This document shows, piece after piece, positions 10,958 to 37,893 of a stretch of DNA of 64,000 bases. The first letter of the stretch is position 1; each line of letters opens with the position of its first letter. The stretch spans positions 124,001 to 188,000 of the forward strand of contig NZ_QMFY01000008.1 in assembly GCF_003286915.1 (NCBI RefSeq), in the 5' to 3' direction. Both the position numbers and the translations under genes were made by a program. The DNA comes from Pseudochryseolinea flava. GTDB taxonomy: Bacteria; Bacteroidota; Bacteroidia; Cytophagales; Cyclobacteriaceae. Below the pieces are notes generated by a model. The model was not told the DNA's origin. It was given only the letters and a program-made list of their open reading frames with translations, and ran no database searches.

Positions 10958-11545
10958 CTACGCGGCAGCACGCGCAATAAGGGCACCGATGCGATCGCTC
11001 ACAGGAATCTTTACAGCTTCTTGTATCGCCCTCGGTGTCATTTTCTTTAACGTCTTCTGTAAAATATCAACGACTTTGTCGTCGTCGTGTTTTGCAGCAA
11101 ATTCTTCAAGATAGTATTCGATGAATACCAAGCACACTACATCTTCAAGCGTTTGTGTGTCGGTATTCGATTTTAATTCTTTCTTGAGCAGAAGGAACTT
11201 TACTTTATCAATGATGTCTTGGTCGTAGCGGCAACTGCTTAGTACCTGCTGTGCAATTTCAGCGTGATGAAACTTCTCAGCGTTTCGCCATTGAAGATAT
11301 CCTTTCTTGTCCATAGAGTACGACTCGCGCGGAATTTCCCAACGACCAACGTGTTGCGCGCGGGCAGCGAGTTGCAAATACTCGGGTGCATTGGGCGCAT
11401 AACGATTCAGGCGCTCCGTCATCCGGATACCGTACAACAATTCTTTTGGATGTGACTTCCCTTCAAAAACTTCTTGATGTGTATCATTCGCATTATACGC
11501 ATCGAAGGTCGCAAATGCTCTTTCAAGTTTTTCGTTCGCTGACAT
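10958..11545 (-). CDS. DUF4202 family protein
   Basis: The protein has 195 residues. The sequence matches DUF4202 as I know it: LERAFATFDAYNANDTHQ near the N-terminus, then a helical HD-like core with LAARAQHVGRWEIPRESY and KFHHAEIAQQVL. The conserved His and Asp residues suggest a metal-binding helical fold, but no activity is known to me. It lies 9 nt downstream of cobA on the same strand and so is probably cotranscribed with it. In other genomes DUF4202 genes tend to accompany nitrite/sulfite assimilation genes, which fits this location. Confidence 0.82.
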   Translation of the reverse strand: MSANEKLERAFATFDAYNANDTHQEVFEGKSHPKELLYGIRMTERLNRYAPNAPEYLQLAARAQHVGRWEIPRESYSMDKKGYLQWRNAEKFHHAEIAQQVLSSCRYDQDIIDKVKFLLLKKELKSNTDTQTLEDVVCLVFIEYYLEEFAAKHDDDKVVDILQKTLKKMTPRAIQEAVKIPVSDRIGALIARAAA

Positions 11546-11554
11546 GTGCTAAAA

Positions 11555-12325
11555 TTACACCGCTACCTTCAATTTTGCCAGCTCTTCGCGCAAACTGAGC
11601 AGCGAACTTTCTAGTACAACGTTACCGATAACAATAACCGCGGGTGACGACAATTCACCCTCTTTAACTTTTTCAAGAATATTTTGTGCAGTACCAATCG
11701 CGATTTTCTGTGTCGCCCACGTGGCTTCTTGAATCACGGCAATTGGTTCTGCTAACGATCGGGTCAAAGCAAACATCTCTGCAATCCTTGCTAGGTGCGT
11801 CATGCCCATCAGAATCACAACCGTCGCCGATGACTTTGCCGCATGAATGATGTCATTTGAAAGTTCGCCAGAGCTTAATGTTCCTGTAACTACCCAAAAG
11901 CTTTCGTTCACACCGCGTTTTGTTAGCGGAATACCGGCGGCACCTGCCGCAGCCAGTGAACTTGATATGCCCGGTATTACTTCTACATGTATGCCATGAC
12001 GTTGCACGTATTCCAATTCTTCATGACCTCTACCAAATACATACGGATCGCCACCTTTTAATCTAACCACCTTTTCAAAACGGCTTGCATAAAATACCAA
12101 TAGACGATTGATCTCCTCTTGCGGAAACTCTTTTTTGCCTTTTCGCTTGCCAACATATACCAAACGACATCCAGGTTTACTCTCTTGAAGCAATCGCTCA
12201 TCTACCAGCGCATCATATAAGATAACGTCGGCACGTGTAATCGCTTTCATCCCTTTTAGAGTCATCAACTCAGGATCGCCGGGGCCGGCGCCTACAATAT
12301 AGAGTGTTGTTTCAGCTTGCTTCAT
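11555..12325 (-). CDS. cobA: Uroporphyrinogen-III C-methyltransferase
   Basis: The protein has 256 residues, the length of a stand-alone SUMT. It methylates uroporphyrinogen III twice with S-adenosylmethionine to give precorrin-2, the precursor of siroheme. Motifs are the SAM-binding YIVGAGPGDPELMTLKG at the N-terminus, VRLKGGDPYVFGRGHEE in the middle and VIPGISS plus GIPLTKRG after it. No CysG-type dehydrogenase/ferrochelatase domain is fused. The gene is divergent from nirB, and the TACGTA cluster lies in the 116-nt interval between the start codons. Co-regulation with NirB, which needs siroheme, is therefore likely. Confidence 0.94.
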   Translation of the reverse strand: MKQAETTLYIVGAGPGDPELMTLKGMKAITRADVILYDALVDERLLQESKPGCRLVYVGKRKGKKEFPQEEINRLLVFYASRFEKVVRLKGGDPYVFGRGHEELEYVQRHGIHVEVIPGISSSLAAAGAAGIPLTKRGVNESFWVVTGTLSSGELSNDIIHAAKSSATVVILMGMTHLARIAEMFALTRSLAEPIAVIQEATWATQKIAIGTAQNILEKVKEGELSSPAVIVIGNVVLESSLLSLREELAKLKVAV

Positions 12326-12441: not shown

Positions 12442-14940
12442 ATGAAAAGGATCGTGATCGTAGGAAATGGAATGGTAGGATATAAGCTTTGCGAAAAGCT
12501 ACGTAGCCGTTCAGCCGAAGTAGAAATTATCGTTTACGGAGAGGAGCCCCGTCCTGCGTACGACCGTGTCCATCTCAGCAGCTACTTCTCGGGATCTACC
12601 GCTGATGACCTGTTAATGGCACCAGCATCATGGTATGTCGAAAACAATATTACACTGCATACGGGTGAATTAGTCATCGACATCGATCGTGAAAAGAAGA
12701 CGATCAAAACCCACATGGGGCGTCACGATCATTACGACCACCTCGTGTTGGCCACAGGATCAAGTGCATTTGTTCCCACGATCGACGGCGTTGAGCGCGA
12801 TGGTGTGTTTGTATATCGCACGATCGAAGACCTCAATGATATTATTGCGTATTCGAAAAAAGTAAAGCGTGGCGCCGTAATGGGCGGCGGACTTTTAGGA
12901 TTGGAGGCAGCAAAAGCGTTGATCGATCTTGGACTTGAAACGCATGTGGTAGAATTCGCGCCGCGTTTGATGCCAAGGCAAATCGATGACGCTGCGTCGG
13001 AAGTGCTCGCGCATAAATTGTCACAACTTGGTATCACCATTCACCTCGGAAAAAATACTAAATCCATCGATGGCAACGGGAAGCTTGAAGGCTTGTCTTT
13101 TGCCGACGGTAGTAAACTCGATATTGAGATGTTGGTCATCTCAGCAGGGATCCGTCCGCGGGATGAACTAGCAAAGGCAACGTTGCTAAATGTTCACCCG
13201 CGCGGCGGTATTCTCGTAGATCAGCATCTGCGCACGAATGATGAAAATATTTTTGCGATCGGTGAGTCTGCCGTATTCAATAATATGGTGTATGGATTGG
13301 TGGCACCAGGATATGAAATGGCCGATATCGTTGCCCGTCAAATCACTGGCGATAACGCAAAAACATTTAATGGATTTGATATGTCGACGAAACTTAAACT
13401 CATCGGCGTCGATGTGGGAAGTTTCGGAGATCCGTTCTGCGATAACACACCAAGTATTCCCATTGTGTTTAAGAACAAGCATAAAGGCGTGTACAAGCGC
13501 ATCAATATTTCGGAAGATGGAAAATTATTGCTCGGTGGTATTTTGATCGGGGATGCGAGTCAGTACAACATTCTCCATCAAATGGTGGCGAACAAAATGC
13601 CGCTGCCGGAAAATCCAGAGACATTAATTATTGGCAATGGAAGTGCAAAGGGCGGCGACGAAGGTGCAGGCGTGAAGGGATTGCCGGACACTGCGCAAAT
13701 TTGCTCTTGCGAAAATATTACGAAAGGGGAACTTGTTCATCAAATTACAGAATGCGGCATTACCAGTGTTGATGGCCTGAAGAAATCTACAAAAGCGTGT
13801 ACCGGATGCGGTGGTTGTACACCACTTGTAAACGATCTGCTCAAGATCACGCTCGAGTCGATGGGACACAAAGTGAAAAAAGTATTATGCGAACATTTCG
13901 ACTTTTCTCGTCAAGAACTTTATGACCTCATCAAAGTGAAAGGGATCAAGAGTTACGATGCATTGCTCGACATGCACGGTAAGGGAGACGGCTGTGAAAT
14001 CTGTAAACCTGCAGTGGCTTCATTGATGGCGAGTATCTGGAACGATTTGATTCTTGAACAAGATACCATTCAAGATAGCAATGATCGATTCTTGGCAAAC
14101 ATACAACGTGGCGGTACGTACTCAGTCGTTCCGCGCATTGCCGGTGGTGAGATCACGCCGCAGAAACTTTCTGCGATCGGTCGCATTGCAGAAAAATATA
14201 ATCTCTATACAAAGATCACTGGTGGTCAGCGCATCGACATGTTCGGCGCGCGCATGGATCAACTTCCGGATATTTGGGAAGAACTTGTTGCAGAAGGATT
14301 TGAAAGCGGACACGCGTATGGAAAATCATTGCGTACGATCAAAAGTTGCGTAGGGTCAACATGGTGCCGTTACGGCGTGCAAGATTCAGTTTCCTTCGCT
14401 GTATTAATTGAAGAGCGCTACAAAGGGTTACGTGCACCGCACAAACTCAAAGGCGCTGTGTCTGGATGTATTCGTGAATGCGCTGAAGCACAATCAAAAG
14501 ATTTTGGAATTATTGCTACCGATAAGGGCTGGAATTTATATGTGTGTGGTAACGGTGGTGCGCGTCCTCAACATGCGAAATTGTTAGTAACCGATGTCGA
14601 TTCTGAAACCTGTATCAAATACATCGATCGTTTCTTGATGTACTACATTCGCACGGCAGACCCACTAACACGTACTGCTACGTGGTTGAATAAACTCGAT
14701 GGAGGTCTCGAATATCTTTATGATGTGGTCGTCAATGATTCTCTTGGAATTGGTGAGATGTTGGAGAAGGAGATGGAAGGATTGATTGCTACTTATCACT
14801 GTGAATGGAAGAAGGTGGTTGAAGATCCTGCGCTTCGTGCGAAATTCCGTCACTTCGTGAACAGTGATGATGCCGATGAGAACATCGAATATGTAGACAT
14901 GCGTGGACAAAAATGTCCGGTAGATTGGAATAAAAAATAG
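12442..14940 (+). CDS. nirB: Assimilatory NAD(P)H nitrite reductase, large subunit
   Basis: The protein has 832 residues, the normal NirB length. It reduces nitrite to ammonium with six electrons from NAD(P)H through FAD, Fe-S centres and siroheme. An FAD/NAD(P)-dependent reductase domain covers about 1-400 (MKRIVIVGNGMVGYKLCE; AVMGGGLLGLEAAKALIDLG). A BFD-like [2Fe-2S] domain carries ICSCEN and CTGCGGC, and a further segment has GCEICKP. A nitrite/sulfite reductase ferredoxin half-domain begins near residue 555. The siroheme/4Fe-4S ligands follow as CVGSTWC and CIREC, the expected C-x5-C and C-x3-C pair. nirD follows after 14 nt. All expected catalytic residues are present. Confidence 0.96.
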   Translation: MKRIVIVGNGMVGYKLCEKLRSRSAEVEIIVYGEEPRPAYDRVHLSSYFSGSTADDLLMAPASWYVENNITLHTGELVIDIDREKKTIKTHMGRHDHYDHLVLATGSSAFVPTIDGVERDGVFVYRTIEDLNDIIAYSKKVKRGAVMGGGLLGLEAAKALIDLGLETHVVEFAPRLMPRQIDDAASEVLAHKLSQLGITIHLGKNTKSIDGNGKLEGLSFADGSKLDIEMLVISAGIRPRDELAKATLLNVHPRGGILVDQHLRTNDENIFAIGESAVFNNMVYGLVAPGYEMADIVARQITGDNAKTFNGFDMSTKLKLIGVDVGSFGDPFCDNTPSIPIVFKNKHKGVYKRINISEDGKLLLGGILIGDASQYNILHQMVANKMPLPENPETLIIGNGSAKGGDEGAGVKGLPDTAQICSCENITKGELVHQITECGITSVDGLKKSTKACTGCGGCTPLVNDLLKITLESMGHKVKKVLCEHFDFSRQELYDLIKVKGIKSYDALLDMHGKGDGCEICKPAVASLMASIWNDLILEQDTIQDSNDRFLANIQRGGTYSVVPRIAGGEITPQKLSAIGRIAEKYNLYTKITGGQRIDMFGARMDQLPDIWEELVAEGFESGHAYGKSLRTIKSCVGSTWCRYGVQDSVSFAVLIEERYKGLRAPHKLKGAVSGCIRECAEAQSKDFGIIATDKGWNLYVCGNGGARPQHAKLLVTDVDSETCIKYIDRFLMYYIRTADPLTRTATWLNKLDGGLEYLYDVVVNDSLGIGEMLEKEMEGLIATYHCEWKKVVEDPALRAKFRHFVNSDDADENIEYVDMRGQKCPVDWNKK

Positions 14941-14954
14941 AAAGGACTTACAAC

Positions 14955-15338
14955 ATGGAAATACTAAACGCTATCAAGACCTTCAAGCCTGAAGTAGAAA
15001 CCGAAGTGAATGTTTGGTTTAAAGCTGCGCACGTAACAGCGTTTCCGGAAAACGGCGGCGCATGTGTAAAGTATAAAGACATGCAAGTAGCGGTGTTCAA
15101 CTTTACGAGACGAAACGAATGGTTTGCTTGCCAGAATCTTTGTCCTCACAAAATGCAGATGGTTCTCTCGCGCGGAATGGTTGGCTCAGTAGAAGGCGAA
15201 CCGAAAGTCGCATGTCCTTTTCATAAGAAGACGTTCTCTCTTAAAACCGGAGAATGCTTGAACGCGGAAGAGTGTTCAATTGCCGTCTTCCCTGTGAAAA
15301 TTGAAGATGGCTACGTTCATATAGGCTTTACGAAGTAA
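14955..15338 (+). CDS. nirD: Nitrite reductase small subunit, Rieske-type
   Basis: The protein has 127 residues. NirD is the partner of NirB with a Rieske fold. The sequence retains the fold pattern CQNLCPHKMQMVLSRGMVG and CPFHKKTFSLKTGEC, the two strand-loop regions where Rieske proteins carry CxH and CxxH. The first loop is CPHK and the second CPFHKK, so a C-x-H and a C-x-x-H are both visible here. Many NirD proteins have lost these ligands, so cluster binding is possible but unproven. An AGGA-like ribosome site (AAAGGAC) precedes the start. Cotranscribed with nirB. Confidence 0.92.
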   Translation: MEILNAIKTFKPEVETEVNVWFKAAHVTAFPENGGACVKYKDMQVAVFNFTRRNEWFACQNLCPHKMQMVLSRGMVGSVEGEPKVACPFHKKTFSLKTGECLNAEECSIAVFPVKIEDGYVHIGFTK

Positions 15339-23238: not shown

Positions 23239-24570
23239 ATGCTCAACAGCAATCCCACAGACAAAGCCACTAAAATCAACTTACTCGATTTTAAAACACC
23301 CCAGATGCGGGCCTTTCATTTAACTTGGATGACGTTCTTCCTTTGTTTCTTCGGATGGTTCGGCATCGCTCCTTTGATGCCTATTGTCAGAAAGGATCTT
23401 AATCTTGATCAAGCACAAATAGGAAACATCATCATTGCTTCGGTAGCCATTACTGTTTTTGCGCGCTTATTCTTCGGATGGTTGTGTGATAAAATCGGAC
23501 CACGGTTGAGCTACACGCTGTTGTTGATTATCGGATCTATTCCGGTAATGTGTATTGGTTTTGCTAACAGCTACGAATCGTTTTTATTATTTCGTTTAGC
23601 CATTGGTCTTATTGGGGCTTCATTTGTAATCACACAATATCACACCTCTGTGATGTTCGCGCCCAACGTAGTGGGTACTGCAAATGCTACTGTTGCTGGT
23701 TGGGGAAATATGGGCGGTGGTGTTACATTAATGGTAATGCCGTTAGTATTTGCAGCGTTTGTTGGCGCCGGTTATCTGGAGCCACAAGCATGGCGTTATA
23801 GCATGGTCGTTCCTGGTGCAGCACTGTTCATCATGGGTTTTATCTACTACTTCTTTACACAAGATACACCAAGCGGAAATTTCAAAGACATTGATCGCAC
23901 AGCAACAGACAAGAAAAGTGGCAAAGGAAATTTCTGGAGTGCTTGTAAAGATTATCGTGTTTGGGTGCTCTTCCTCGCGTATGGCGCTTGCTTTGGTATT
24001 GAGATTACGATCGACAATATCGCAACACTCTACTTCGTCGACAATTTCAATTTAGGTATTAAAGAAGCCGGCATCATTGCAGGCACGTTTGGGATGATGA
24101 ACATCTTCGCGCGTGCATTGGGTGGAATCTTCGGTGATATGGCGGGAAAAAAATACGGCATTAATGGAAGGATAATCATTCTCGGCGCATTCTTACTGCT
24201 TGAAGGTATCGGCATCATGATCTTCTCTACAATGGACGTGCTATTGTGGGCGATCGTTACCATGTTGCTCTTCGCGCTCTTCTTGAAAATGTCTAACGGA
24301 GCAACTTACGCTGTGGTGCCATTCATTAATAAGAAGGCCATGGGTGCTGTAGCAGGTATCGTTGGCGCGGGCGGAAATGTTGGTGCCGTGCTCGCTGGAT
24401 TTCTGTTCGCCTCAAAAACAATCTCATATCGTGAAAGCTTGTTCATTATTGGCATCGTGGTGATGGCTGTTTCAGTGCTGTCGCTAATCCTCGTGATGGT
24501 AACGATGAAGAAAAATAATCCGGTAGTAGAAAATGCACCGGTAACACAAACAGAATTACAACCTGCTTAA
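23239..24570 (+). CDS. narK: Nitrate/nitrite transporter of the MFS NNP family
   Basis: The protein has 443 residues and twelve transmembrane helices. It carries the nitrate signature glycine-rich motifs of the NNP family: GWGNMGGGVTLMVMPL in helix 5 and AGIVGAGGNVGAVLAG in helix 11. The loop RLFFGWLCDKIGPRLSY is the MFS motif. Members import nitrate with protons or exchange it for nitrite. It is the first gene of the nitrate uptake and reduction cluster and is preceded by six TACGTA sites. A long imperfect palindrome follows the gene, and the next gene starts 164 nt downstream. Confidence 0.93.
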   Translation: MLNSNPTDKATKINLLDFKTPQMRAFHLTWMTFFLCFFGWFGIAPLMPIVRKDLNLDQAQIGNIIIASVAITVFARLFFGWLCDKIGPRLSYTLLLIIGSIPVMCIGFANSYESFLLFRLAIGLIGASFVITQYHTSVMFAPNVVGTANATVAGWGNMGGGVTLMVMPLVFAAFVGAGYLEPQAWRYSMVVPGAALFIMGFIYYFFTQDTPSGNFKDIDRTATDKKSGKGNFWSACKDYRVWVLFLAYGACFGIEITIDNIATLYFVDNFNLGIKEAGIIAGTFGMMNIFARALGGIFGDMAGKKYGINGRIIILGAFLLLEGIGIMIFSTMDVLLWAIVTMLLFALFLKMSNGATYAVVPFINKKAMGAVAGIVGAGGNVGAVLAGFLFASKTISYRESLFIIGIVVMAVSVLSLILVMVTMKKNNPVVENAPVTQTELQPA

Positions 24571-24734: not shown

Positions 24735-26114
24735 ATGGATAAGAAAAAATACTTACTACTTTTCTCACTCCTTTTTTGCATGCTCGCACCAAAAGTGATG
24801 CATGCACAAATTACCGTTTCTGGACAAATTAGAACGCGGACTGAACTGCGTAACGGACAAGGTCTTCCGCAAGTGCAAGATACCTCACGTGCACTATTCA
24901 CCTCACAACGCTCCCGACTGAATGTTGGCTTTGCGGCACACCGTCTGAAAATATATACGTCAATTCAAGATGTTCGCGTATGGGGACAAGACCAATCACA
25001 AATCAATCGTACAACATCAGATGCGATCGATGGATTTATGCTGCACGAGGCATGGGCCGAAATTAGTCTTGTAGACACCGGTAAAGTAGTCAAGAACTTC
25101 GCATTGAAAATCGGACGTCAGGAACTTGTATATGATGATGCTCGCCTCCTGGGAAATCTCGATTGGCTACAACAGGCAAGACGACATGACGCGATGGTAT
25201 TAAAATTCGATCATAGCGGATGGACTGCACATCTTGGTGTTGCATATAACCAAAATGCTGAAAGAAAATCAAACACATTGTACAACGGTACCCCTACCGC
25301 TGGCGCAGTAAGCACCAATGGATTAACGGCGCAATACAAAGCCATGCAATTTCTGTACGTCGGTCGCAAGCATTTCTTCGGAAATTCATCGTTCCTCTTT
25401 TTCAAAGATGACTTCAGTAAATTCCATTTTGCAGAGACCGATGTTGAGAAAAAAACACCGATCTATGAAAAAGGCGTGTGGAGCCGCTATACACTCGGCG
25501 GTAATCTTTTTGGAACAGCGAAACGTAAGCTCGGATTTGCGTTGAGCGCATTTTATCAATTCGGTCAATATCGTGAAGGAACGAAGCTCGATGAATATCT
25601 AGTCTCCGCATCGGTGATGTATTCCGCCGGCCGCAAGTGGAGCTTTGGTCCAGGTGTCGATATAACATCTGGAAACAACGGCACTGATCCAGCAGATAAA
25701 TTTAAACGCTTTGATCCACTCTATGGAACTCCTCATAAGTTTTGGGGATACATGGATTACTTCTATGTAGCCGATGGATTTGGGTCAAGCGGTTTACAGG
25801 ATTTTTACTTCAAAACAAAATACAAAGCTAAAGACAATTTGACTTTAACATTAGATGCTCATGAATTTGTATTACCCGCTGCGGTAAAAGCAAATGATGG
25901 CAAGGAGCTTTCTAAAAAACTAGGAACCGAACTGGATTTGATTTTCCAATATACGTTGACGAAGGCGATCACCTTTGAGGGTGGCTACTCAGCTATGTTT
26001 TCTACAGAAACGATGTCTTCACCCAAAGTCAAGAACGTGAAGAAAGCTGCTGATTTCTCTGATTGGGCTTACGTGATGATTAACATCAAGCCATCTGAAA
26101 TTATCCTCAAATAA
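24735..26114 (+). CDS. Alginate-export-type outer-membrane channel, probable nitrate porin
   Basis: The protein has 459 residues. Signal peptide MDKKKYLLLFSLLFCMLAPKVMHAQ. The mature protein is a beta-barrel of the alginate_exp type: SGQIRTRTELR at the N-terminus, SQRSRLNVGF and LKIGRQELVYDDARLLGNLDWLQQARRHDAMVLKF in the middle, and an aromatic-terminated last strand region. The family covers channels for anionic substrates. Its place as the first gene after narK and only 13 nt before nrtA argues that it lets nitrate through the outer membrane. That assignment is contextual, since the domain name refers to a different substrate. Confidence 0.85.
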   Translation: MDKKKYLLLFSLLFCMLAPKVMHAQITVSGQIRTRTELRNGQGLPQVQDTSRALFTSQRSRLNVGFAAHRLKIYTSIQDVRVWGQDQSQINRTTSDAIDGFMLHEAWAEISLVDTGKVVKNFALKIGRQELVYDDARLLGNLDWLQQARRHDAMVLKFDHSGWTAHLGVAYNQNAERKSNTLYNGTPTAGAVSTNGLTAQYKAMQFLYVGRKHFFGNSSFLFFKDDFSKFHFAETDVEKKTPIYEKGVWSRYTLGGNLFGTAKRKLGFALSAFYQFGQYREGTKLDEYLVSASVMYSAGRKWSFGPGVDITSGNNGTDPADKFKRFDPLYGTPHKFWGYMDYFYVADGFGSSGLQDFYFKTKYKAKDNLTLTLDAHEFVLPAAVKANDGKELSKKLGTELDLIFQYTLTKAITFEGGYSAMFSTETMSSPKVKNVKKAADFSDWAYVMINIKPSEIILK

Positions 26115-26127
26115 AAACCTTACGACA

Positions 26128-27393
26128 ATGAAAAATATCAATATCAACATATCGAAATTTTTAGTTCTACTGTTTGCTCCACTCATGCTGCTAGTGTTCA
26201 CAGCGGCAACGGTGAATGAATCATCAAACAGTGCTGCAACAACGACCTCACCCAGAGAAAAAGGTGATGTGATCAAGTTAGGATTTATTCCTTTGACCGA
26301 TTGCGCACCAATCGTCATGGCAAAGGAGCTTGGATTGTTTACGAAGTATGGTTTGAATGTAGAGGTAACGAAAGAAGCTTCGTGGGCCAATGTGCGCGAC
26401 AAAATATTAACGGGAGAACTCGATGGTGCTCATTGTCTTTTCAGTATGCCGTTTTCAGTGTACACGGGTGTTGGCGGTAAGGCCGGTTCAGAAATGAAAA
26501 TAGCCATGGTCCTCAATAACAACGGACAGGCTATCACTTTATCAAAAGATTTCTGTGGTAAAGTAGGTTTCAAGCAAACCAATAAAGTGGCTGGCGTTGT
26601 TGCAGCAAAACAGAAGGCGGAAAAGGAAGTGACGTTCGCGATGACTTTTCCTGGCGGAACGCACGACATTTGGCTTCGTTATTGGCTTGCGGCAGCAGGT
26701 ATAAATCAAAAAACATCGAAGATCATTACTATTCCGCCACCACAAATGGTAGCAAACATGAAAGTTGGCAACATGGATGGCTATTGTGTAGGTGAACCTT
26801 GGGGGGGAGTAGCTGTGAAGCAGAATGTTGGGTTCACAGAAATATCAACACAAGACATTTGGAAACATCATCCCGAAAAAGCGCTCGTTGTTAATAAGGG
26901 TTTTTCAGAAGGACGGCGAGAAGAATTGAAGCTCGTTATGAAAGCGGTGTTGGAAGCTTGTAAATGGCTTGACAATCGTGCTAACCGCAAGAAGGCTGCT
27001 GCCATTATTGGAAAGCAACAGTATGTAAACGCGCCTGCGGATGTAATCGAAGCACGTTTGATGGGTGACTATAATCTTGGTTGCGATCAAGGTACGCAGA
27101 TCTACACGGATGATTATATGTTATTCCATCGTGGCGGTGATACAAACTTGCCGCGGAAATCACACGCAATTTGGTTTATGGCACAGTACATGCGTTTCGA
27201 CTATTTGCAATCGGCACCCGACTACAAAGCTATTGCCGATAAGTTGATCATGCAGGATTTGTATATAGAAGTAGCGAAAAGCATGAACATTAAGATACCG
27301 GCTGATGATATGAAACCCTTCACCTTAACGATAGACAAAGCAGTGTTCGATCCCAATAGCCCGGGTGACTATTTAAAGCTGGCAAAAAAGTAA
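26128..27393 (+). CDS. nrtA: NrtA/CmpA-type nitrate-binding protein of an ABC importer
   Basis: The protein has 421 residues. A hydrophobic N-terminal segment (about 10-30) provides export. The substrate-binding fold starts with VIKLGFIPLTDCAPIVMAKELGLFTKYGLNVEV, close to NrtA/CmpA, and continues with SWANVRDKILTGELDGAHCLFSMP. The signature MDGYCVGEPWGGVAVK occurs in the second lobe. NrtA/CmpA proteins bind nitrate/nitrite or bicarbonate; the flanking nitrate genes favour nitrate. No lipobox Cys is evident, so it may be anchored by the uncleaved segment or be free. Permease and ATPase genes follow. Confidence 0.9.
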   Translation: MKNININISKFLVLLFAPLMLLVFTAATVNESSNSAATTTSPREKGDVIKLGFIPLTDCAPIVMAKELGLFTKYGLNVEVTKEASWANVRDKILTGELDGAHCLFSMPFSVYTGVGGKAGSEMKIAMVLNNNGQAITLSKDFCGKVGFKQTNKVAGVVAAKQKAEKEVTFAMTFPGGTHDIWLRYWLAAAGINQKTSKIITIPPPQMVANMKVGNMDGYCVGEPWGGVAVKQNVGFTEISTQDIWKHHPEKALVVNKGFSEGRREELKLVMKAVLEACKWLDNRANRKKAAAIIGKQQYVNAPADVIEARLMGDYNLGCDQGTQIYTDDYMLFHRGGDTNLPRKSHAIWFMAQYMRFDYLQSAPDYKAIADKLIMQDLYIEVAKSMNIKIPADDMKPFTLTIDKAVFDPNSPGDYLKLAKK

Positions 27394-27479: not shown

Positions 27480-28340
27480 ATGAAAAGAACAACAACACTT
27501 ACAGCGACATTTACGCGTGATTGGTTCGGCGGTAGCAATGGTGAGACGACAAATGTTTTCGTAGCTAAGCTTATCTCGATAATAAAAGGCTTGGTGTTTA
27601 ATGCACTTGGTTTTGGCATTCTTATAGGTATATGGTATCTCGTGAGTATCTTAACTGATGGTGAGTTGCCAACGCCTTACGCAACCTTTTTAGTCTTGTG
27701 GGAACTCATTAAAGATCCATTCTATGATTATGGCCCTAACGATAAGGGTATTGGTCTCCAGTTGGGAAGCTCTCTCTTGCGCGTTTTCTTTGGCTTTACA
27801 TTAGGGGCAATCGTCGCCATTCCATTGGGAATTTTAATTGGAGCGAGTACAATATGTAAACGAATGTTCTATCCTATCGTGCAAGTACTGAAGCCGGTAT
27901 CTCCACTCGCATGGTTTCCGATTGGTTTAGTGGCTTTTCAGTCGGCGGGATCAGCGACGATCTTCATCATATTCATCACGTCGCTCTGGCCAACGTTGAT
28001 CAACACCTCTTTCGGTGTCGCGTCATTGCCTGACGATCACAAGAACGTAGCGAAGGCTTTTGGCTTTTCGAAATGGAAATATCTTACGAAAGTACTTCTT
28101 CCATTTAGCTTGCCGCATATCATTACTGGGCTGCGACTTAGCATTGGTGTGGCGTGGTTGGTTATTGTTGCTGGCGAAATGTTATCGGGCGGAATCGGTA
28201 TCGGATTCTTTGTGTGGGACAGCTGGAATGCGCTGAGTCTCGAACGTGTGATCTCGGCAATTCTTATTATCGGTCTAGTGGGTCTTCTTTTGGATAGAGG
28301 ATTTTCACTCATCGAAAAACGTGTAACGTACAGTATCTAA
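27480..28340 (+). CDS. nrtB: NrtB-type ABC importer permease
   Basis: The protein has 286 residues with about six transmembrane helices (first helix about 40-58). The EAA loop that contacts the ATPase is KNVAKAFGFSKWKYLTKVLLPFSLPHIITGLR. The group is NrtB/SsuC/TauC in the binding-protein-dependent inner-membrane family. It lies 86 nt after nrtA and 37 nt before the ATPase gene and completes the importer with them. Confidence 0.92.
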   Translation: MKRTTTLTATFTRDWFGGSNGETTNVFVAKLISIIKGLVFNALGFGILIGIWYLVSILTDGELPTPYATFLVLWELIKDPFYDYGPNDKGIGLQLGSSLLRVFFGFTLGAIVAIPLGILIGASTICKRMFYPIVQVLKPVSPLAWFPIGLVAFQSAGSATIFIIFITSLWPTLINTSFGVASLPDDHKNVAKAFGFSKWKYLTKVLLPFSLPHIITGLRLSIGVAWLVIVAGEMLSGGIGIGFFVWDSWNALSLERVISAILIIGLVGLLLDRGFSLIEKRVTYSI

Positions 28341-28377: not shown

Positions 28378-29193
28378 ATGAGCTATTTAAAAATTGAAAA
28401 TATGGAAATCTCCTTCAACACGCCCAAAGGTCGCTTTGTGGCAGTGAAGGATGTAAACTTAGATATTGCAAAGGGAGAAATCGTTTCGATCATTGGTCAT
28501 TCTGGTTGTGGTAAGTCTACAATTTTGAACGCCATCAGCGGAATGCTTTATCCAGCAAAGGGAACGGTAACTTTGGCCGGTAAGCAAATCAAAGGTCCAG
28601 GTCCTGATCGTGGAATCGTTTTTCAGAATTATTCATTACTTCCTTGGTTAACCGTGTACGAGAATATTTTTCAAGCCGTTGATGCAGCATTGGTGCTAAC
28701 ATCGAAAGCTGAGAAAAAAGAACTCGTGGAAAAATATCTGAAGATGGTGAATCTGTGGGAGCATCGTGAAAAGTTTCCAAAACAGATTTCCGGTGGAATG
28801 AAACAACGCACCGCCATTGCGCGTGCCTTCGCTATCAATCCCGATGTATTGTTGTTAGATGAACCTTTCGGAGCACTTGATGCACTTACAAAAGGATCAC
28901 TTCATATCGAGTTGCTGAAAATGTGGAACCTGACACAACGGAGCAAAACGATTGTGATGGTTACACATGATATTGAAGAAGCGGTTTTTCTTTCCGATCG
29001 AATTGTAGTTATGAACAATGGACCTGCTGCGACGATTCGCGAAATTGAAGAAGTGAACTTGCCAAGGCCACGCAATAAGAAAGACATCGTGAACATGGAG
29101 GAATACAAAATTATTCGTGAGCGACTGTTGAGTTTGCTGATGGATAAAGTTGAAATTGACGAAAAGGATTTCTTCAAAGAAAAGGCGGCGTAG
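28378..29193 (+). CDS. nrtD: NrtD-type ABC importer ATPase
   Basis: The protein has 271 residues with every ATPase motif: Walker A GHSGCGKST (about 40-48), Q-loop VFQNYSLLPW, signature ISGGMKQRTAIARA, Walker B VLLLDEPFGALD and the switch His in VTHDIEEAVFLSD. It is the single-domain form (NrtD-like), without the solute-binding extension of cyanobacterial NrtC. It energises nitrate import with the two preceding gene products. Confidence 0.93.
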   Translation: MSYLKIENMEISFNTPKGRFVAVKDVNLDIAKGEIVSIIGHSGCGKSTILNAISGMLYPAKGTVTLAGKQIKGPGPDRGIVFQNYSLLPWLTVYENIFQAVDAALVLTSKAEKKELVEKYLKMVNLWEHREKFPKQISGGMKQRTAIARAFAINPDVLLLDEPFGALDALTKGSLHIELLKMWNLTQRSKTIVMVTHDIEEAVFLSDRIVVMNNGPAATIREIEEVNLPRPRNKKDIVNMEEYKIIRERLLSLLMDKVEIDEKDFFKEKAA

Positions 29194-29276
29194 TCATACT
29201 GGTGATTATTGCTATGGAATGTTAGTATTTAAGGACTCGTTTTGATGCATTGTCATGGAAACGGGAAAAACATAAG

Positions 29277-32200
29277 ATGAAGAGACACGCGGAAGAAAGT
29301 TTCAAAACAACCTGCTCCTACTGCGGAGTGGGTTGTGGCATTGTTGTCAAGAAAAATCGAAAAGGGAAGATCACTGTTGAAGGAGATCAAGATCATCCGG
29401 TGAACAGAGGAATGTTGTGTTCGAAGGGCATGAACTTGCATTACGCTATGCAAGATCAAAGTGACCGGCTACTCCATCCAGAAATGCGATGGAGCAGAAA
29501 CCACCCTTACCAACAAGTAAGTTGGGACATGGCCTTGCAACGTGCTGCTGCTGTTTTTAAATCGATCATTCAAACCTATGGCCCCGACGCCGTAGGATTT
29601 TATGTGTCTGGGCAATGCCTGACAGAAGAATACTACATCGCCAATAAGCTGGTAAAGGGATTTCTCGGTACGAATAATATCGATACGAATTCAAGGCTCT
29701 GCATGAGTAGTGCAGTAGCAGGGTATACCAAGACGCTCGGTGAAGATTCTGTTCCCATTGCATATGAAGACATCGAGCTAGCAGATTGTTTCTTTATCGC
29801 GGGGGCAAATCCAGCATGGTGTCATCCGATTTTGTTCAGAAGAATCGAGGCGCATAAGCAAGCTAATCCCGACGTCAAAGTTATTGTCGTTGATCCGCGA
29901 CGCACGCAGACCTGCGCAATGGCGGATTTGCATTTGCAAATTTCGCCGGGCACCGACATGTACGTGTATCATGCCATCGCTCGCATTCTCATTGAGAACG
30001 GTGATGTCGATTATAACTTTATTAACAACCACACTGAAGGTTTTGCGGAATACCGCGATGCTGTGTTCAACGTTACTGTTGAAGAAGCAGCGCGCATTTG
30101 TGATGTGCCCGAAAGTGACATCAGACTGGCCGCGTCATACATTGCTGCTGCAAAAGGTTTTTTGACTTTGTGGGCGATGGGATTGAATCAAAGCGTGATC
30201 GGCGTGAACAAAAATATCGCGCTGATTAGTTTGAATTTGATCACGGGGCATATCGGCAAACCGGGTTCCGGACCATTCTCTTTAACTGGGCAACCCAATG
30301 CGATGGGTGGTCGTGAAGTTGGCGGTCTTGCCACGATGCTTGCCGCACATCGTTCGTACGCAAATCCCGAACATCGGAAAGAGGTGGCATCGTTCTGGGG
30401 TGTTCCGTCAATTTCAGAAAAACCTGGACTCACCGCCACGCAAATGATTGAGGCTCTTGAACGTGGTGACTTGAAAGCAATTTGGATTATCTGTACGAAC
30501 CCGTTGGTAAGTTTGCCTGATACGCGTCGCGCTGAAGCCGCGATGAAGAAAGCACGCTTTGTTGTTGTCCAAGATATTTCTCGTAAATCCGATACGCTGG
30601 ATTTCGCCGATCTGATACTTCCTGCCGCGGGCCACTTCGAAAAGGAAGGAACAATGACAAATTCGGAACGTCGAATCAGTCATTTAAGCAAGGCTATTGA
30701 TGCACCAGGTGAAGCATTGCCGGATGTAGAAATACTTTGCCGCTTTGCTAAAGCGATGGGCTTTCATGGGTTTGACTATAACAACGTCGACGAAATTTTC
30801 GATGAACATTGTCGCCTCACAAAAGGTACGAACCTTGATATCAGCGGACTGAACTATGCTCAGCTCAAAGAAAGCGGAACAATTCAGTGGCCTGTTCCGG
30901 AAAAGAATCACAAAGGAACCGCCAGACTTTTTACCGATAGTCAGTTTTATACACCATCAAAGAAAGCGAAATTTCATCCGTTGAATAATCCAGAAAATCA
31001 ATCGGAGCCGTTGACAAGCGACTTCCCCTTGATCCTAACCACCGGACGAATACGCGATCAGTGGCATACGATGACCAAGACAGGAAAAGTCAATAAGCTT
31101 CGGCAGCACATCGACAAGCCGGTACTCGAAATTCATCCGCATGATGCCATGGTCAGAAATATCAAAGAGGGTGATGTAGTCGAGATCGATAATTTTCGCG
31201 GTACTGTTCGTGTGTCGGCAAAAATTTCAGAAGACATCAAGAAAGGTGTTGTTTTTCTTCCTATGCATTGGGGAAAAATTTTGCAAAAGGATTTGGCGCG
31301 CGCGAATAATCTCACCAGTCATTTGGTTGATCCGATCTCCAAGGAGCCTGACTTTAAATTCTCTGCTGTTGAAGTTCGCAAATTCGAAAAGCCGATTGAA
31401 AAAATTATTGTTGTTGGTGCAGGCGCCGCGTCGTATCGATTCTTGCAGACCTATAGAATGCTGAATGAACAAGACGAGATCTTAGTTTTTTCGAAGGAGA
31501 AAGATCCTTTTTATAACCGCGTACTGTTACCTGAATATGTAAACGATACACTATCATGGGATCGCTTGCAAAAATTCCAGAACGGTGAGTTTGAATCGTT
31601 GAATGTAAAACTTCACACGGAAAGGGAAATCGTCATGATCAACCGCACGCAACAGTATGTCGTTGATAATACGGGAAAGAAATATCCGTATGACAAACTC
31701 ATTCTCGCTACCGGTAGTAGAGCACATATTCCTAAGGAAGCACCAGTGCATCTTCCAGGTGTGTTTACGATGCGCACAAGAAAAGATGCCGATGAGCTTA
31801 AGAAATTTTTGAAAGCGGATGGCCATGTGGCGATTATTGGTGGTGGTTTGTTGGGGTTAGAGCTTGCTGCATCGTTGCGTGAATTGGATGTTAATATTTC
31901 AATCATTCAATTGAGTGGTCGCTTAATGGAACGACAGTTGGATAACATGTCTGGCCAGTTGCTGCTTGAGATTGTAGAAGAGATGGGTATTCAGCCGCAG
32001 CTTCGCGATCAGGTGGAATCAGTGGAACAAGTGAAAGGAAAGAATCAACTAGCAGTTCATCTTAAATCAGGTAAGGTTCTCATTGTCGACGCGATTGTCT
32101 ATGCTGTAGGTACTAGGCCCAATATTGAATTTGCAACGGAAGCAGGGCTTGATACCGCTAGGGGTATCGTTGTAAATGACTATATGCAGACAAGCGATCC

Positions 32201-32798
32201 AAATATTTTTGCGGCAGGGGAGATTGCAGAACATCGCGGCAAGCTGTTAGGCATTACGTCAGCTGCTGAGAAGCAGGCCGATGTATTGGCGCGCTTTATT
32301 TACGGCGATGTATTGAGCACGTATGAAGGTGCTACGCCGATGAACATTTTGAAATTCTCCAACCTTGATCTATGCTCTATCGGTATTGCCGAAATTCCGG
32401 TGAACAGTGAGGGATATGATGAAATTCTTTTCATCGATAAGTCGATGCGCTACTACAAGAAATGTATCGTCAAGGATGACAAGCTTGTAGGTGCCGTGTT
32501 GGTTGGTGATAAATCTGAGTTTGCTGAATTCAAAACATTGATTGAAAATCAGATTGAGTTGTCGGATCGTCGCATGCAACTACTTCGATCTGGGAAAAAG
32601 CAAGAGCCCGTTGTTGGGAAATTGGTATGTACATGTAACCAAGTGGGAGAGGGCAACTTGAAGAAATTGGTTGAAGGTGGTTGCAATTCGTTGCCAGAGC
32701 TTTGTCAGTCGTCGGGTGCGGGGTTAGGCTGCGGAAGTTGCAAGCCAGAGATTCAACGGATTTTGAAGGAACTGGAAGCAGTAAAGGTGGAGAACTAA
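29277..32798 (+). CDS. Assimilatory nitrate reductase fused to an FAD/NAD(P) reductase and BFD-like domain
   Basis: The protein has 1173 residues from ATG 29277; a TTG nine codons upstream is the only alternative nearby. Residues 1-55 form the 4Fe-4S site of molybdopterin oxidoreductases (C13, C16, C20, C48; CSYCGVGC). The Mo-bis-MGD catalytic part runs to about 690 (PTSSRLCMSSAVAG-like block SRLCMSSAVAGY; DPRRTQTCAMADLHL; the dinucleotide-binding C-terminal TTGRIRDQWHTMT). From about 708 a NirB-like flavoprotein begins (KIIVVGAGAASYRF; VAIIGGGLLGLELAAS). A BFD-like [2Fe-2S] domain ends the chain with VCTC and GCGSC. It thus combines the NasA/NasC-type catalytic subunit with a NasB-type electron-input subunit and probably draws electrons from NAD(P)H directly. 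Confidence 0.9.
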   Translation: MKRHAEESFKTTCSYCGVGCGIVVKKNRKGKITVEGDQDHPVNRGMLCSKGMNLHYAMQDQSDRLLHPEMRWSRNHPYQQVSWDMALQRAAAVFKSIIQTYGPDAVGFYVSGQCLTEEYYIANKLVKGFLGTNNIDTNSRLCMSSAVAGYTKTLGEDSVPIAYEDIELADCFFIAGANPAWCHPILFRRIEAHKQANPDVKVIVVDPRRTQTCAMADLHLQISPGTDMYVYHAIARILIENGDVDYNFINNHTEGFAEYRDAVFNVTVEEAARICDVPESDIRLAASYIAAAKGFLTLWAMGLNQSVIGVNKNIALISLNLITGHIGKPGSGPFSLTGQPNAMGGREVGGLATMLAAHRSYANPEHRKEVASFWGVPSISEKPGLTATQMIEALERGDLKAIWIICTNPLVSLPDTRRAEAAMKKARFVVVQDISRKSDTLDFADLILPAAGHFEKEGTMTNSERRISHLSKAIDAPGEALPDVEILCRFAKAMGFHGFDYNNVDEIFDEHCRLTKGTNLDISGLNYAQLKESGTIQWPVPEKNHKGTARLFTDSQFYTPSKKAKFHPLNNPENQSEPLTSDFPLILTTGRIRDQWHTMTKTGKVNKLRQHIDKPVLEIHPHDAMVRNIKEGDVVEIDNFRGTVRVSAKISEDIKKGVVFLPMHWGKILQKDLARANNLTSHLVDPISKEPDFKFSAVEVRKFEKPIEKIIVVGAGAASYRFLQTYRMLNEQDEILVFSKEKDPFYNRVLLPEYVNDTLSWDRLQKFQNGEFESLNVKLHTEREIVMINRTQQYVVDNTGKKYPYDKLILATGSRAHIPKEAPVHLPGVFTMRTRKDADELKKFLKADGHVAIIGGGLLGLELAASLRELDVNISIIQLSGRLMERQLDNMSGQLLLEIVEEMGIQPQLRDQVESVEQVKGKNQLAVHLKSGKVLIVDAIVYAVGTRPNIEFATEAGLDTARGIVVNDYMQTSDPNIFAAGEIAEHRGKLLGITSAAEKQADVLARFIYGDVLSTYEGATPMNILKFSNLDLCSIGIAEIPVNSEGYDEILFIDKSMRYYKKCIVKDDKLVGAVLVGDKSEFAEFKTLIENQIELSDRRMQLLRSGKKQEPVVGKLVCTCNQVGEGNLKKLVEGGCNSLPELCQSSGAGLGCGSCKPEIQRILKELEAVKVEN

Positions 32799-32840: not shown

Positions 32841-34304
32841 ATGACAATGGAAGCGAAAAAGAGTGATTTGATTAGGGCATTTGTGAAGGGCGGAATTTTA
32901 TCTCCGGCCGATATGCTGAAGATCATGGACATCTCTCGGGCACTGGGCAACAAATTCGTGTTGTTTGGCTCACGCCAGGATATCATGTTCCCATCCAATG
33001 GTGCTGATGAAAAAGAGTTGGACCGATTGTTTCGTGAGATCCATATCGACTACGAACTTGGTAGCGACCAGTCTGTCCACCAAAACATCGTAAGTTCTTA
33101 CGTTGCCGACAACGTCGTTGATACAACCAATTGGGTTAAAGAAGATACCTACCACTTTGTGATCGACAATTTCGATTACAAACCGAAGATCAAAATTAAT
33201 ATCGTTGACCCCGTTCAAAGTATTATTCCTTTACTAACAGGTGAAATAAATTTTATCGCATCGAAGGAGGAAAATTATTGGTACATGTATTTGCGTGATC
33301 CACGTAAAGGGAACTCTGTGGAATGCTGGCCAAAGTTGATCTTTACACAAGACATTGCGAAGGTCTCTAAAGCACTTGAGGAATTGTTCTTGAATTTTCA
33401 GCCCTTTGCACTTGATGAATTATTTGTCATCCTGCAGGGTAAAATGCGCATCAACTACCGCGCACTCACAGAGAAATTGAAATTTCCGGAAACAACGTTC
33501 CCATATTATGAAGGTCTCAATGCTATGGTGAATAACCAATACTGGTTAGGACTTTACTGGCGAAATAATCACTACGATATCGACTTCATGACGGCGGCAT
33601 GTAGGCTTTGTCAAGAAACAAATATTGGGAAGATCAACATCATTCCATGGAAGGCGTTCATCATTAAAGGTATCAAGGCCACTGACAGAATACGCTGGCA
33701 GAAGTTAATGGGTAAATTCGGTATTAACGAGCGCCATTCATCGCTTGAATTGAATTGGCATCTTCCGGTAATCGATGCTGATGCACTTGAACTAAAAAGA
33801 TTTTTGGTTCGTGAACTCGATCAGCAGGATATCAGTACACATGGTTTAACGTTTACCATTAAAATGAAACGCGATATGTTTTTGTTTACTTCCATTGTTA
33901 TTGAAAGGAGTACGCAAAACGAAACCAGCGAACGTTATACGATCAAGTATGCGAAGAATTTTAATCCCAATAACATCACGTATCTCACGTATGCACGCGA
34001 TGTGAAGAAGGAGATCATTCCAACATTGTTAATTGAATTAAGTAAGCTGTACTATCGACAACTCAATCCTGAGAAAGAACAGCAGGCGGATCAATCGAAG
34101 GAAGAAAAGAAAGTGAGTGCCGTAACAAGCTATCAGTGTACCAACTGTCTCTCCGTTTATGACAAACGCTACGGAGATGCTATTGCGAACATTCCACCAG
34201 GTGTTTCTTTTGAAGATCTACCCGAATCATATAAATGCCACGTCTGCGACAGTACGAAAAAATATTTCGTTGCTTTGCGTGAAGTTTCAGAAGTTGGAAA
34301 ATAA
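32841..34304 (+). CDS. Nitrite/sulfite-reductase-fold protein with C-terminal rubredoxin domain
   Basis: The protein has 487 residues. AAGGAG precedes the start, and ATG 32847 is an alternative. Residues 5-75 resemble the ferredoxin-like half-domain of nitrite/sulfite reductases (GGILSPADMLKIMDISRALG; VLFGSRQDIMFP). A second similar half follows at about 265-360. The siroheme/4Fe-4S cysteine pairs found in true reductases are absent; the only close pair is C254/C257. After a charged linker, residues 428-480 are a rubredoxin with C433, C436, C466 and C469 (spacing 2-29-2) around YGDAIANIPPGVSFEDLPESY. It is likely an iron-carrying electron-transfer partner for nitrate or nitrite reduction. The function is inferred. 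Confidence 0.8.
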   Translation: MTMEAKKSDLIRAFVKGGILSPADMLKIMDISRALGNKFVLFGSRQDIMFPSNGADEKELDRLFREIHIDYELGSDQSVHQNIVSSYVADNVVDTTNWVKEDTYHFVIDNFDYKPKIKINIVDPVQSIIPLLTGEINFIASKEENYWYMYLRDPRKGNSVECWPKLIFTQDIAKVSKALEELFLNFQPFALDELFVILQGKMRINYRALTEKLKFPETTFPYYEGLNAMVNNQYWLGLYWRNNHYDIDFMTAACRLCQETNIGKINIIPWKAFIIKGIKATDRIRWQKLMGKFGINERHSSLELNWHLPVIDADALELKRFLVRELDQQDISTHGLTFTIKMKRDMFLFTSIVIERSTQNETSERYTIKYAKNFNPNNITYLTYARDVKKEIIPTLLIELSKLYYRQLNPEKEQQADQSKEEKKVSAVTSYQCTNCLSVYDKRYGDAIANIPPGVSFEDLPESYKCHVCDSTKKYFVALREVSEVGK

Positions 34305-34351: not shown

Positions 34352-37300
34352 TTACATATTTCTCCGGTATTGTCCACCGACTTCGAAAAGCGCTTTCGTG
34401 ATTTGCCCGAGTGAGCACACTTTACAAGCTTCCATCAGCGATTCAAAAATATTTCGATTTTGAATTGCACTTTGTTGAACTTGCTCTAGCAAAGCCGTTG
34501 CGCGGTTGTTCGCGAAGGCATGAAGTTCACGCAGCATTTTAATTTGGTATTCCTTTTCTTCTGTTGTCGCGCGAATAACTTCCTGTGGGATGATCGTCGG
34601 TGATCCTTTTGAACTTAAGAACGTATTCACCCCCACGATTGGATATTCGCCGGTGTGTTTTTGCATTTCATAATACAAGCTTTCTTCTTGGATTTTTCCA
34701 CGCTGATACATCGTCTCCATGGCACCCAATACGCCACCTCGTTCCGTAATGCGATCGAACTCTGAAAGCACGGCTTCTTCAACGAGATCGGTTAATTCTT
34801 CTATGATGAATGAACCTTGTGTTGGATTTTCATTTTTGGCAAGTCCAAGTTCTTTGTTGATGATTAGCTGAATCGCCATCGCGCGACGGACGCTTTCTTC
34901 TGTTGGCGTTGTGATTGCTTCATCATAAGCATTGGTGTGAAGCGAATTGCAATTGTCATAAATGGCGTACAATGCTTGCAGTGTCGTACGGATATCGTTA
35001 AAGTCGATTTCTTGCGCATGTAGTGAGCGCCCCGAGGTTTGAATGTGGTATTTCAACATCTGACTTCTTGCGTTGGCGCCGTATTTGACCTTCAGTGCCT
35101 TTGCCCAAAGTCTGCGCGCCACTCTTCCAATAACAGCGTATTCCGGATCGACACCATTGCTAAAGAAGAAAGATAAGTTCGGCGCAAATTCATTGATGTC
35201 CATCCCGCGACTTAAATAATACTCAACGTAAGTAAAACCGTTGGCCAACGTAAAGGCTAGCTGCGTAATTGGATTTGCACCAGCCTCTGCGATATGATAT
35301 CCGGAAATGGAAACTGAATAAAAATTGCGAATGTTTTGATCGATGAAATATTGCTGTACATCGCCCATGAGACGTAAGGCAAATTCAGTTGAGAAGATGC
35401 AGGTGTTTTGCGCTTGATCTTCTTTCAAAATATCAGCTTGCACGGTACCGCGAACTTGCGCAAGTGTTTCCGTCTTAATTTTTGCATACACGTCGGCGGG
35501 AAGCACCTGATCTCCTGTTACACCGAGTAGCATGAGGCCCAATCCATCATTTCCTTTCGGGAGCGTACCTTGATAAGCGGGTCGGACTGCATTTTTTTCC
35601 TTGTACAGCGCATCAATTTTTTTCTGAACGTCAGCTTCAAGTCCGTTTTGCTTGATATAAATCTCACATTGTTGATCGATGGCCGCATTCATAAAATAGC
35701 CAAGCAACATCGGTGCAGGCCCATTAATCGTCATCGACACGGAAGTGCGCGGATCTGCAAGGTTAAATCCACTGTATAATTTTTTGGCGTCATCAAGGCA
35801 GCAAATACTCACCCCCGAGTTGCCGATTTTTCCATAGATGTCTGGGCGATAATCAGGATCATTTCCATAAAGCGTCACAGAGTCGAAGGCTGTAGAAAGA
35901 CGTTTCGCGGGCATCGTGTGACTCACATAGTGGAAGCGGCGATTGGTTCTTTCAGGTCCGCCTTCACCAGCAAACATTCGTGTCGGATCTTCGCCTTCAC
36001 GTTTGAAAGGATAGATTCCTGCGGTGTACGGAAACTCTCCAGGAACGTTTTCTTGTAGCGTCCACTGCAATAAATCACCCCAAGCTTCGTAGCGTGGAAG
36101 AGAGACCTTCGGAATTTGCAAATGTGAAAGTGACTCAGCATGTGTCTTGATGCCCAGCTCTTTGTCACGTACTTTGAATTTAAATACGGGCTCTTTGTAT
36201 TGGCTTACTTTCGATGGCCACGATTCAATGAGCTTCCAATTCTTTGGATCAAGGTTTAATTTTAATCTATCAAATTCCGCTTGAAGCACTTTCGCAACAT
36301 CGGCATTGTCACGTGCAATCGTGTCGATCGTTTTTTGAACGGCATACAATTTTTGTGCGGTATCTTTTTGCTCACGAACCCATCCGTCGTACTGACGATT
36401 ATTTTCTGAAATCTCGCTGAGGTATCGTGTCCTGTTCGGCGGGATTACAAAAACTTTCTCTGACATTTCTCTCGTGATGGCAAACGTCGATTGTAATTTG
36501 CTAGACGTCTTCGAAGCAATTTTGTCCATCACTTGCTTGTACAACTGATTTGTACCGGGATCATTGAATTGCGAAGCAATCGTTCCAAATACAGGCATGT
36601 CTTCAACTTTACTATTCCAAAGTTGATGGTTCCGCTGAAACTGTTTTTTAACATCACGCAACGCATCGAGTGCACCGCGTTTATCGAACTTGTTCAAAGC
36701 AATAACATCGGCGAAATCGAGCATGTCAATTTTTTCGAGCTGTGTTGCTGCACCATATTCTGGCGTCATTACATACAACGAAACGTCGCTATGGTCAAGA
36801 ATTTCGGTGTCGCTTTGACCGATACCCGAAGTCTCCAAGATGATTAAATCATATTGTGCTGCTTTCAATACTTGAATCGCCTCTTTCACGTACGCAGATA
36901 GTGCAAGATTGCTTTGACGTGTAGCCAACGATCGCATGTAAACGCGCGGGTTGTTGATGGCGTTCATCCGAATGCGATCACCCAATAGTGCACCACCAGT
37001 TTTACGTTTCGATGGGTCTACTGAAATAATGCCAAGTGTTTTATCCTTGAAGTCGATCAGGAATCTTCTCACGATCTCATCAACCATCGATGATTTCCCC
37101 GCACCGCCTGTGCCGGTAATACCGAGGACAGGCACCGATGATTTTTCTGCAAGAACTTTTACTTCGTTGAGAATATCTTTATTCTGATCATAAAAGTTTT
37201 CGGCAGCGGAAATAATTCTCGCAATTGCGACGGGATTCTTAGTGGTCAGGGCATCAATTTCTTTTTTCGAAATTTTTTCACCCGTAGGATAATCACTTTG

Positions 37301-37780
37301 CTGCACTAAGTCATTAATCATTCCTTGCAATCCCAATGCGCGACCATCGTCGGGAGAATATATTTTCGTGATACCATACGCCATGAGATCTTTTATTTCT
37401 TCCGGTAGAATCACCCCCCCGCCACCACCGAAGATTTTGATGTGACCTGCGCCCTTTTCTTTCAGCAAGTCGTACATGTATTTAAAATATTCGTTGTGAC
37501 CGCCTTGATAGCTGGTCATCGCGATGGCTTGGGCATCTTCCTGAATTGCAGTATTCACTACTTCTTCAACACTTCGATCGTGGCCAAGGTGAATCACTTC
37601 ACAACCCGTGGCCTGAATGATGCGACGCATAATATTGATCGCAGCGTCATGTCCATCAAAAAGACTTGCCGCGGTTACGATGCGAACTTTATTTTTCGGC
37701 TTATAGGGCTCCGGTGCAGCATGACCGGCGAGACTTTGTTTTTTATCTTGTTTTGAAGCGGAAATCGTTTCTGTACTCAT
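34352..37780 (-). CDS. icmF: IcmF-type fused isobutyryl-CoA mutase (B12-dependent)
   Basis: The protein has 1142 residues from ATG 37780; a TTG seven codons upstream is less likely. Order of domains: cobalamin-binding domain (about 30-165; [12 protein letters not shown]), a MeaB-like GTPase chaperone (about 200-430) with P-loop [12 protein letters not shown] and NKFD, and the mutase substrate-binding barrel (about 530-1100). This B12-GTPase-mutase order defines IcmF, which converts isobutyryl-CoA to n-butyryl-CoA (some members act on pivalyl- or isovaleryl-CoA). The fused GTPase loads and protects the cofactor. The adjacent plus-strand nitrate genes converge on it; no functional tie is seen. 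Confidence 0.92.
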
Positions 37781-37893
37781 GATCCAGTTGTATGGGTACA
37801 AAAATAAATAGAAACTGTTGAATACCTAACGACTATTAGGAAAAGCGTTATGGTCTTGCTTTACGGACCCGTCGAACATGAAACCAATGGTTG

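Follow-up and report, generated by a model that had tools for sequence, protein, structure and literature searches.

A rubredoxin-tailed protein with a sulfite reductase fold lacking the siroheme centre is genomically paired with the single-chain nitrate reductase of Bacteroidota

What does a protein do that has the body of a siroheme reductase, none of the cysteines of its catalytic centre, and a rubredoxin at its C-terminus? Such a protein is encoded in a 64,000-nucleotide stretch of the Pseudochryseolinea flava genome (contig NZ_QMFY01000008.1, positions 124,001 to 188,000; hereafter, the window). The reading frame reported in the initial annotation is present and encodes 487 amino acids (Table 1); it is open only on the forward strand, with no rival frame on the other. 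As that annotation also held, the gene closes the nitrate operon, being the last of the run NarK–porin–NrtABD–Nas, and the following gene (34352-37801) is convergent. The latter encodes an ordinary fused isobutyryl-CoA mutase/GTPase, IcmF. NCBI names the Nas gene and its follower ‘nitrate reductase’ and ‘rubredoxin’, respectively, and no NCBIfam model spans the whole rubredoxin-tailed protein; the database name hides a sulfite reductase (SiR)-like body that makes up approximately 400 of the 487 residues.

Table 1. Positions in the window of the nitrate island genes and of the parts of the rubredoxin-tailed protein
Feature	Coordinates	Strand	Remarks
Uroporphyrinogen-III C-methyltransferase	11555..12325	-	siroheme synthesis for NirB/SiR
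NirB, complete nitrite reductase	12442..14940	+	own SiR domain and cysteines
NirD, small subunit	14955..15338	+	Rieske-type
NarK-type nitrate/nitrite MFS transporter	23239..24570	+	TIGR00886, just below cut-off
Alginate-export-family outer-membrane porin	24735..26114	+	recurrent in nitrate islands
NrtA-like nitrate-binding protein	26128..27393	+	NMT1_2
NrtB nitrate ABC permease	27480..28340	+	TIGR01183
NrtD/C nitrate ABC transporter ATPase	28378..29193	+	TIGR01184
Single-chain assimilatory nitrate reductase (Nas fusion)	29250..32798	+	directly upstream partner
Rubredoxin-tailed, siroheme-less SiR-fold protein	32841..34304	+	487 aa; subject of this study
Complete SiR/NiR fold without cluster cysteines, residues 10-410	32868..34070	+	AlphaFold2, VIA-align, HH against NirA
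First NiR/SiR ferredoxin-like half-domain (PF03460), residues 11-66	32871..33038	+	Pfam, E 3.9e-9
C254-x2-C257, helix of the second half-domain	33600..33611	+	common, not invariant
HSSLELNWHLP (motif HSxxExNWHxP), residues 299-309	33735..33767	+	approximate position of SiR C-x5-C
End of last helix and variable low-confidence linker, residues 411-429	34071..34127	+	alignment, AlphaFold2
Rubredoxin, residues 430-478, C433/C436/C466/C469	34128..34274	+	Pfam, structure match

The N-terminal part of approximately 420 residues had been described as resembling a nitrite/sulfite reductase, and several lines of evidence agree with this description. The Pfam match of the first half-domain to PF03460 (E = 3.9e-9) exceeds the curated cut-off; nothing was called by Pfam between residues 66 and 430, which leaves the second half-domain unrecognised. 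An AlphaFold2 model built from a 64-member alignment was confident (pLDDT 90, pTM 0.82), and its comparison with siroheme reductases recovered the SiR/NiR fold. In Foldseek and VIA-align searches, residues 10-410 superpose end to end on residues 81-544 of E. coli SiRHP (VIA-align: Z 28-29, rmsd 3.2-3.5 Å over approximately 375 residues, 12-13% identity), followed by plant nitrite reductases (Z ~26) and mycobacterial NirA (Z 25); the body is composed of two ferredoxin-like half-domains and two NIR_SIR-type domains. HH comparisons with single sequences were too weak by themselves (E. coli SiR: probability 1.6, E = 0.03; NirB: first half-domain only), so family profiles were used, and the relation was then clear, extending over 275 columns with SiR (E = 5e-7) and 395 columns with NirA (residues 9-409 on 196-644, E = 4e-6). 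A sequence search of the PDB with the family profile matched only rubredoxins or rubredoxin-containing proteins; the relation to SiR therefore rests on the fold, the family profiles and the Pfam half-domain. Since the structure matches and the family profiles agree, the entire two-half reductase body, not one half alone, is present. With regard to NirA or SiR as the ancestor of this body, the profile scores are close, and the identity of 12-16% is too low for a trustworthy tree.

The C-terminal rubredoxin, assigned at the outset to C433, C436, C466 and C469, was recovered both by Pfam (PF00301, residues 431-476, E = 3.6e-13) and by structure comparison, in which residues 428-481 match rubredoxin structures with Z ~9 (Foldseek, VIA-align); the four cysteines are present in all 64 homologues. 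The linker that tethers it varies in length among the homologues, and pLDDT falls below 50 at residues 423-426. No Rieske-type [2Fe-2S] domain, the carrier type of NirD and NasG, was matched by Pfam in the rubredoxin-tailed protein. A diverged member of the family (locus L020, 1495-2871) has lost the middle of the rubredoxin by deletion and retains all four cysteines.

These four are the only invariant cysteines among the 64 homologues. The C-x5-C/C-x3-C pairs that ligate the [4Fe-4S]-siroheme centre, which the initial annotation had failed to find, are indeed absent: not one of the four cysteines occurs in any of the homologues examined. The siroheme-binding loops are gone from the family, the region of the C-x3-C loop ranks among its most variable parts, and nothing in it corresponds to the Arg/Lys-rich loop that precedes the second half and is invariant in SiR and NirA. 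As had also been noted, C254 and C257 form the only other close cysteine pair; they are kept in 58/64 and 63/64 homologues, respectively, and were rejected as a ligand pair, one or the other being missing in several members. Situated in a helix, this pair could represent a disulfide or a metal site.

At approximately the position of the SiR C-x5-C motif, the family carries a motif of its own, HSxxExNWHxP, in which H299, S300, E303, N305, W306, H307 and P309 are invariant in the 64 homologues; N305 was set opposite C434 manually, with the helix that follows (K319-R-F-L on E448-R-F-L) as the guide, and this placement is approximate. Judging from the alignment, the loss of ligands and loops together with an invariant motif at the C-x5-C site indicates that the siroheme/[4Fe-4S] centre has been lost and that the rebuilt site is under strong selection, in contrast to a decaying pseudogene; signs of purifying selection are seen for the protein.

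In E. coli SiR, R83, R153, K215 and K217 are the substrate-anion residues. Their equivalents were traced by sequence-profile alignment, which in the first half of the fold has no gaps near these residues: R83 corresponds to R12 (kept in 64/64), K217 to K118 (K/R in 60/64), and the K215 equivalent is K/R in 48/64 homologues, with the R153 equivalent replaced, mostly by Q, and those of R214, Q121 and H123 replaced too. The rebuilt pocket consists of the invariant HSxxExNWHxP and the conserved R12, R45, Q46, N82, K118, W270 and K271. The kept R83 and K217 equivalents and the invariant motif, as well as the siroheme made by the gene island, would suit a protein that is still an enzyme, holding siroheme or another cofactor in an altered pocket and reducing nitrite, sulfite or another oxyanion with rubredoxin electrons. 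We regard this as improbable, however, given the complete loss of the cluster cysteines, the replaced R153, R214 and Q121/H123 equivalents, the Arg/Lys-rich loop without a counterpart, and the complete NirB and SiR encoded in the same genome. It is also doubtful that the pocket binds a new ligand at the former siroheme/cluster site, for example transiting nitrite or nitrate, or a non-haem metal, which would make the protein a new nitrogen-oxyanion enzyme or a nitrite-handover device fed by the rubredoxin.

The surroundings of the gene point to its partner. The window holds a complete nitrate-assimilation island, to which a NarX/NarQ-like kinase and a NarL-like regulator also belong, and the complete NirBD encoded elsewhere in it means that nitrite reduction is already provided for. 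Upstream of the rubredoxin-tailed gene, across a gap of 42 bases, lies the Nas fusion, which is composed of an Fe4S4/Mo-bisMGD part (residues ~15-710), a NirB-like FAD/NADH reductase (718-1105) and a BFD [2Fe-2S] domain (1125-1174), and has no SiR domain. By Pfam (PF18267, E = 2.8e-23), its FAD half is a member of the NADH:rubredoxin-reductase-like superfamily, and it also gives NorW and NirB matches.

Relatives were collected with an alignment, as exact peptide patterns taken from this one sequence had yielded none. In GTDB genomes, a profile-derived scan detected at least 578 loci that encode the protein; the best 80 of these were fetched, and all of them come from broadly defined Bacteroidota, with Balneolaceae included. 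The order Nas, then rubredoxin-tailed gene, on the same strand was found in 80/80 loci, and the upstream Nas is a single Mo-FAD-BFD chain in each of the 79 loci that cover it. Start and stop of the two genes overlap by 1-8 bases in approximately 17 of the 80 loci; in one (L050), 2.4 kb lie between them. Two other genes recur in this collection: the alginate-export-family porin, possibly an outer-membrane nitrate channel, in 38/80 loci, and a DUF4202 gene, which in the window (10958-11545) adjoins the siroheme methyltransferase, in 12/80.

The pairing also holds at the level of whole genomes. Among 59 relatives, 21 encode the rubredoxin-tailed protein. Of these, 20 have a full-length Nas fusion and the remaining one (G008) has a contig-truncated version, compared with 0 of the 38 others (Fisher 2e-16, with a lower true significance as the genomes are related). 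One genome (G055) has kept both genes although they are unlinked. A phylum-wide draw of 395 genomes revealed the protein in 29, with the Nas fusion in 28 of them and the gene located at a contig end in the 29th (G183). Four Bacteroidota plasmids carry the rubredoxin-tailed protein, and the same four carry a close Nas fusion; plasmid records outside Bacteroidota contained no full-length single-ORF Mo-FAD-BFD fusion. A full-length Nas-FAD fusion apparent in Arthrobacter was rejected, as it proved to be two overlapping ORFs. The initial annotation had tentatively placed the protein in nitrate or nitrite reduction; the partner can be narrowed to the Nas fusion directly upstream, which precedes the gene in 80/80 loci, and NirB is ranked below it as a partner on gene adjacency. 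Such strict pairing, and the ability of a rubredoxin to report redox state, might also be expected of a redox or nitrate sensor gating Nas or its operon; this is very improbable, considering that Pfam detected no output domain of any sort, DNA-binding and kinase domains included, and that the island already encodes a NarX/NarL-like pair.

The Nas fusion was found without the rubredoxin-tailed protein in five genomes (loci L149-L153; G274, G108, G066, G211 and G235). All five have a neighbouring active-type NirA and no NirB, whereas NirB is present in every genome with the rubredoxin-tailed protein that is not contig-limited, i.e., NirBD goes with this protein. Next to Nas, at least four of the five, with G235 as the doubtful case, carry a gene for a CysJ-like FAD reductase or an ORF that agrees with it in size and location; the family match was shown for L149, L150 and L152. 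These loci appear to form a second island type, in which the Nas fusion is accompanied by a NirA-type reductase and separate genes for a CysJ-like flavodoxin and FAD reductase. Positions conserved in partner-bearing Nas fusions and changed in the five fusion-only genomes number 8 of 118 conserved ones in the FAD-BFD half, whereas the Mo half has 3 of 233 (p = 0.008), an enrichment that is suggestive only, as the positions are few and confounded by clade and by faster evolution of the FAD half.

The association with NirB raises the possibility, which we consider less likely, that the protein couples nitrate and nitrite reduction, either taking electrons from NADH via Nas/NirB for NirBD or passing nitrite from Nas to NirB and preventing its build-up; the partly kept anion-site residues R12 and K118 would fit oxyanion binding. 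On the other hand, only approximately 31 of the 80 loci have nirBD inside the 10 kb that was fetched, compared with Nas directly upstream in all 80, NirBD functions without such a protein outside this group, and the window holds its own NirD as a carrier. A precedent for coupling exists in Paracoccus, where NasG was proposed to feed both enzymes (PMC4724949).

The one-to-one gene pairing and the translational coupling, like the conserved rebuilt pocket, would also suit an assembly or maturation factor acting in cofactor insertion or folding of Nas, in which the rubredoxin would handle redox steps or deliver iron. Such a role seems unlikely: Mo-enzyme chaperones of the NarJ/TorD type are all-helical and of unrelated fold, an intact rubredoxin would be unusual in a chaperone, and five genomes manage without the protein. 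Of the two roles suggested in the initial annotation, that of an electron carrier (or subunit) is favoured over that of an assembly factor.

We therefore hypothesize, at a probability of roughly 0.55, that the rubredoxin-tailed protein serves the single-chain Nas of Bacteroidota as a dedicated redox subunit without catalysis of its own, or as a tightly coupled partner. In NirB, the FAD-BFD module hands electrons to the attached SiR domain. In the Nas fusion, a NirB-like module of this kind would serve the Mo domain to which it is attached, the SiR-shaped body being supplied by the next gene. This body may dock on the FAD/BFD half of Nas, roughly as the SiR domain would pack in NirB, and the rubredoxin, swinging on its linker, could carry single electrons and so smooth or branch their flow between NADH/FAD and the Mo centre. 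A dead nitrite reductase would in this way have been kept as a docking body, with the rubredoxin replacing siroheme/[4Fe-4S]. We infer electron transfer by the rubredoxin tail to Nas from the fold, the genomic pairing and precedent: in Paracoccus, a separate carrier, NasG, was proposed to relay electrons between the NADH site and NasC, and the FAD oxidoreductase Flp was proposed as the electron donor to NasC in Bradyrhizobium (PMC4724949). Two observations weigh against a redox subunit. The five fusion-only genomes have the Nas fusion without it, so the fusion can work alone, at least where a CysJ-like flavoprotein adjoins; and the Nas fusion already holds FAD and [2Fe-2S], which makes the need for an extra carrier not obvious.

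A family encoded in hundreds of Bacteroidota genomes is thus filed as plain ‘rubredoxin’ despite its siroheme-reductase body without an active centre. No description of the pair was found in the searched literature, mostly without subscription papers, and the pair points to a type of nitrate reductase undescribed there, in which a one-chain Mo-FAD-BFD enzyme is joined by a rubredoxin-tailed pseudo-reductase. It would be a clear example of a redox enzyme that has become a carrier or scaffold, and the question of what supplies electrons to nitrate reductase in Bacteroidota becomes testable.

Compared with known systems, the body shares its whole fold and domain order with SiRHP/CysI (1aop), NirA (1zj8) and plant NiR (2akj), as well as the scaffold residues equivalent to R83, R117, Q118 and N154; unlike these enzymes, it has no cluster cysteines, the siroheme loops are missing, a C-terminal rubredoxin is present, and the protein is presumably not catalytic. 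In Paracoccus-like nitrate assimilation, carriers of the NasG/NirD type are likewise small redox proteins proposed to act between the NADH site and Nas; NasG, however, is a ferredoxin that is not tethered and has a different fold, whereas here a rubredoxin is tethered to an SiR-like body and NirD is separate. Flp–NasC of Bradyrhizobium and NasB–NasC of Bacillus similarly supply a Mo nitrate reductase by way of an FAD NAD(P)H oxidoreductase, but in Bacteroidota the oxidoreductase and the reductase are joined in a single polypeptide, after which a third protein is encoded. Finally, fusion of a rubredoxin to a larger body is also known from flavorubredoxin (NorV/NorW) and the rubredoxin-fused hybrid cluster protein (7e0l), and NorV is fed by an NADH:rubredoxin-reductase-like flavoprotein; in those proteins the body is an enzyme, whereas the body described here has lost its active site.
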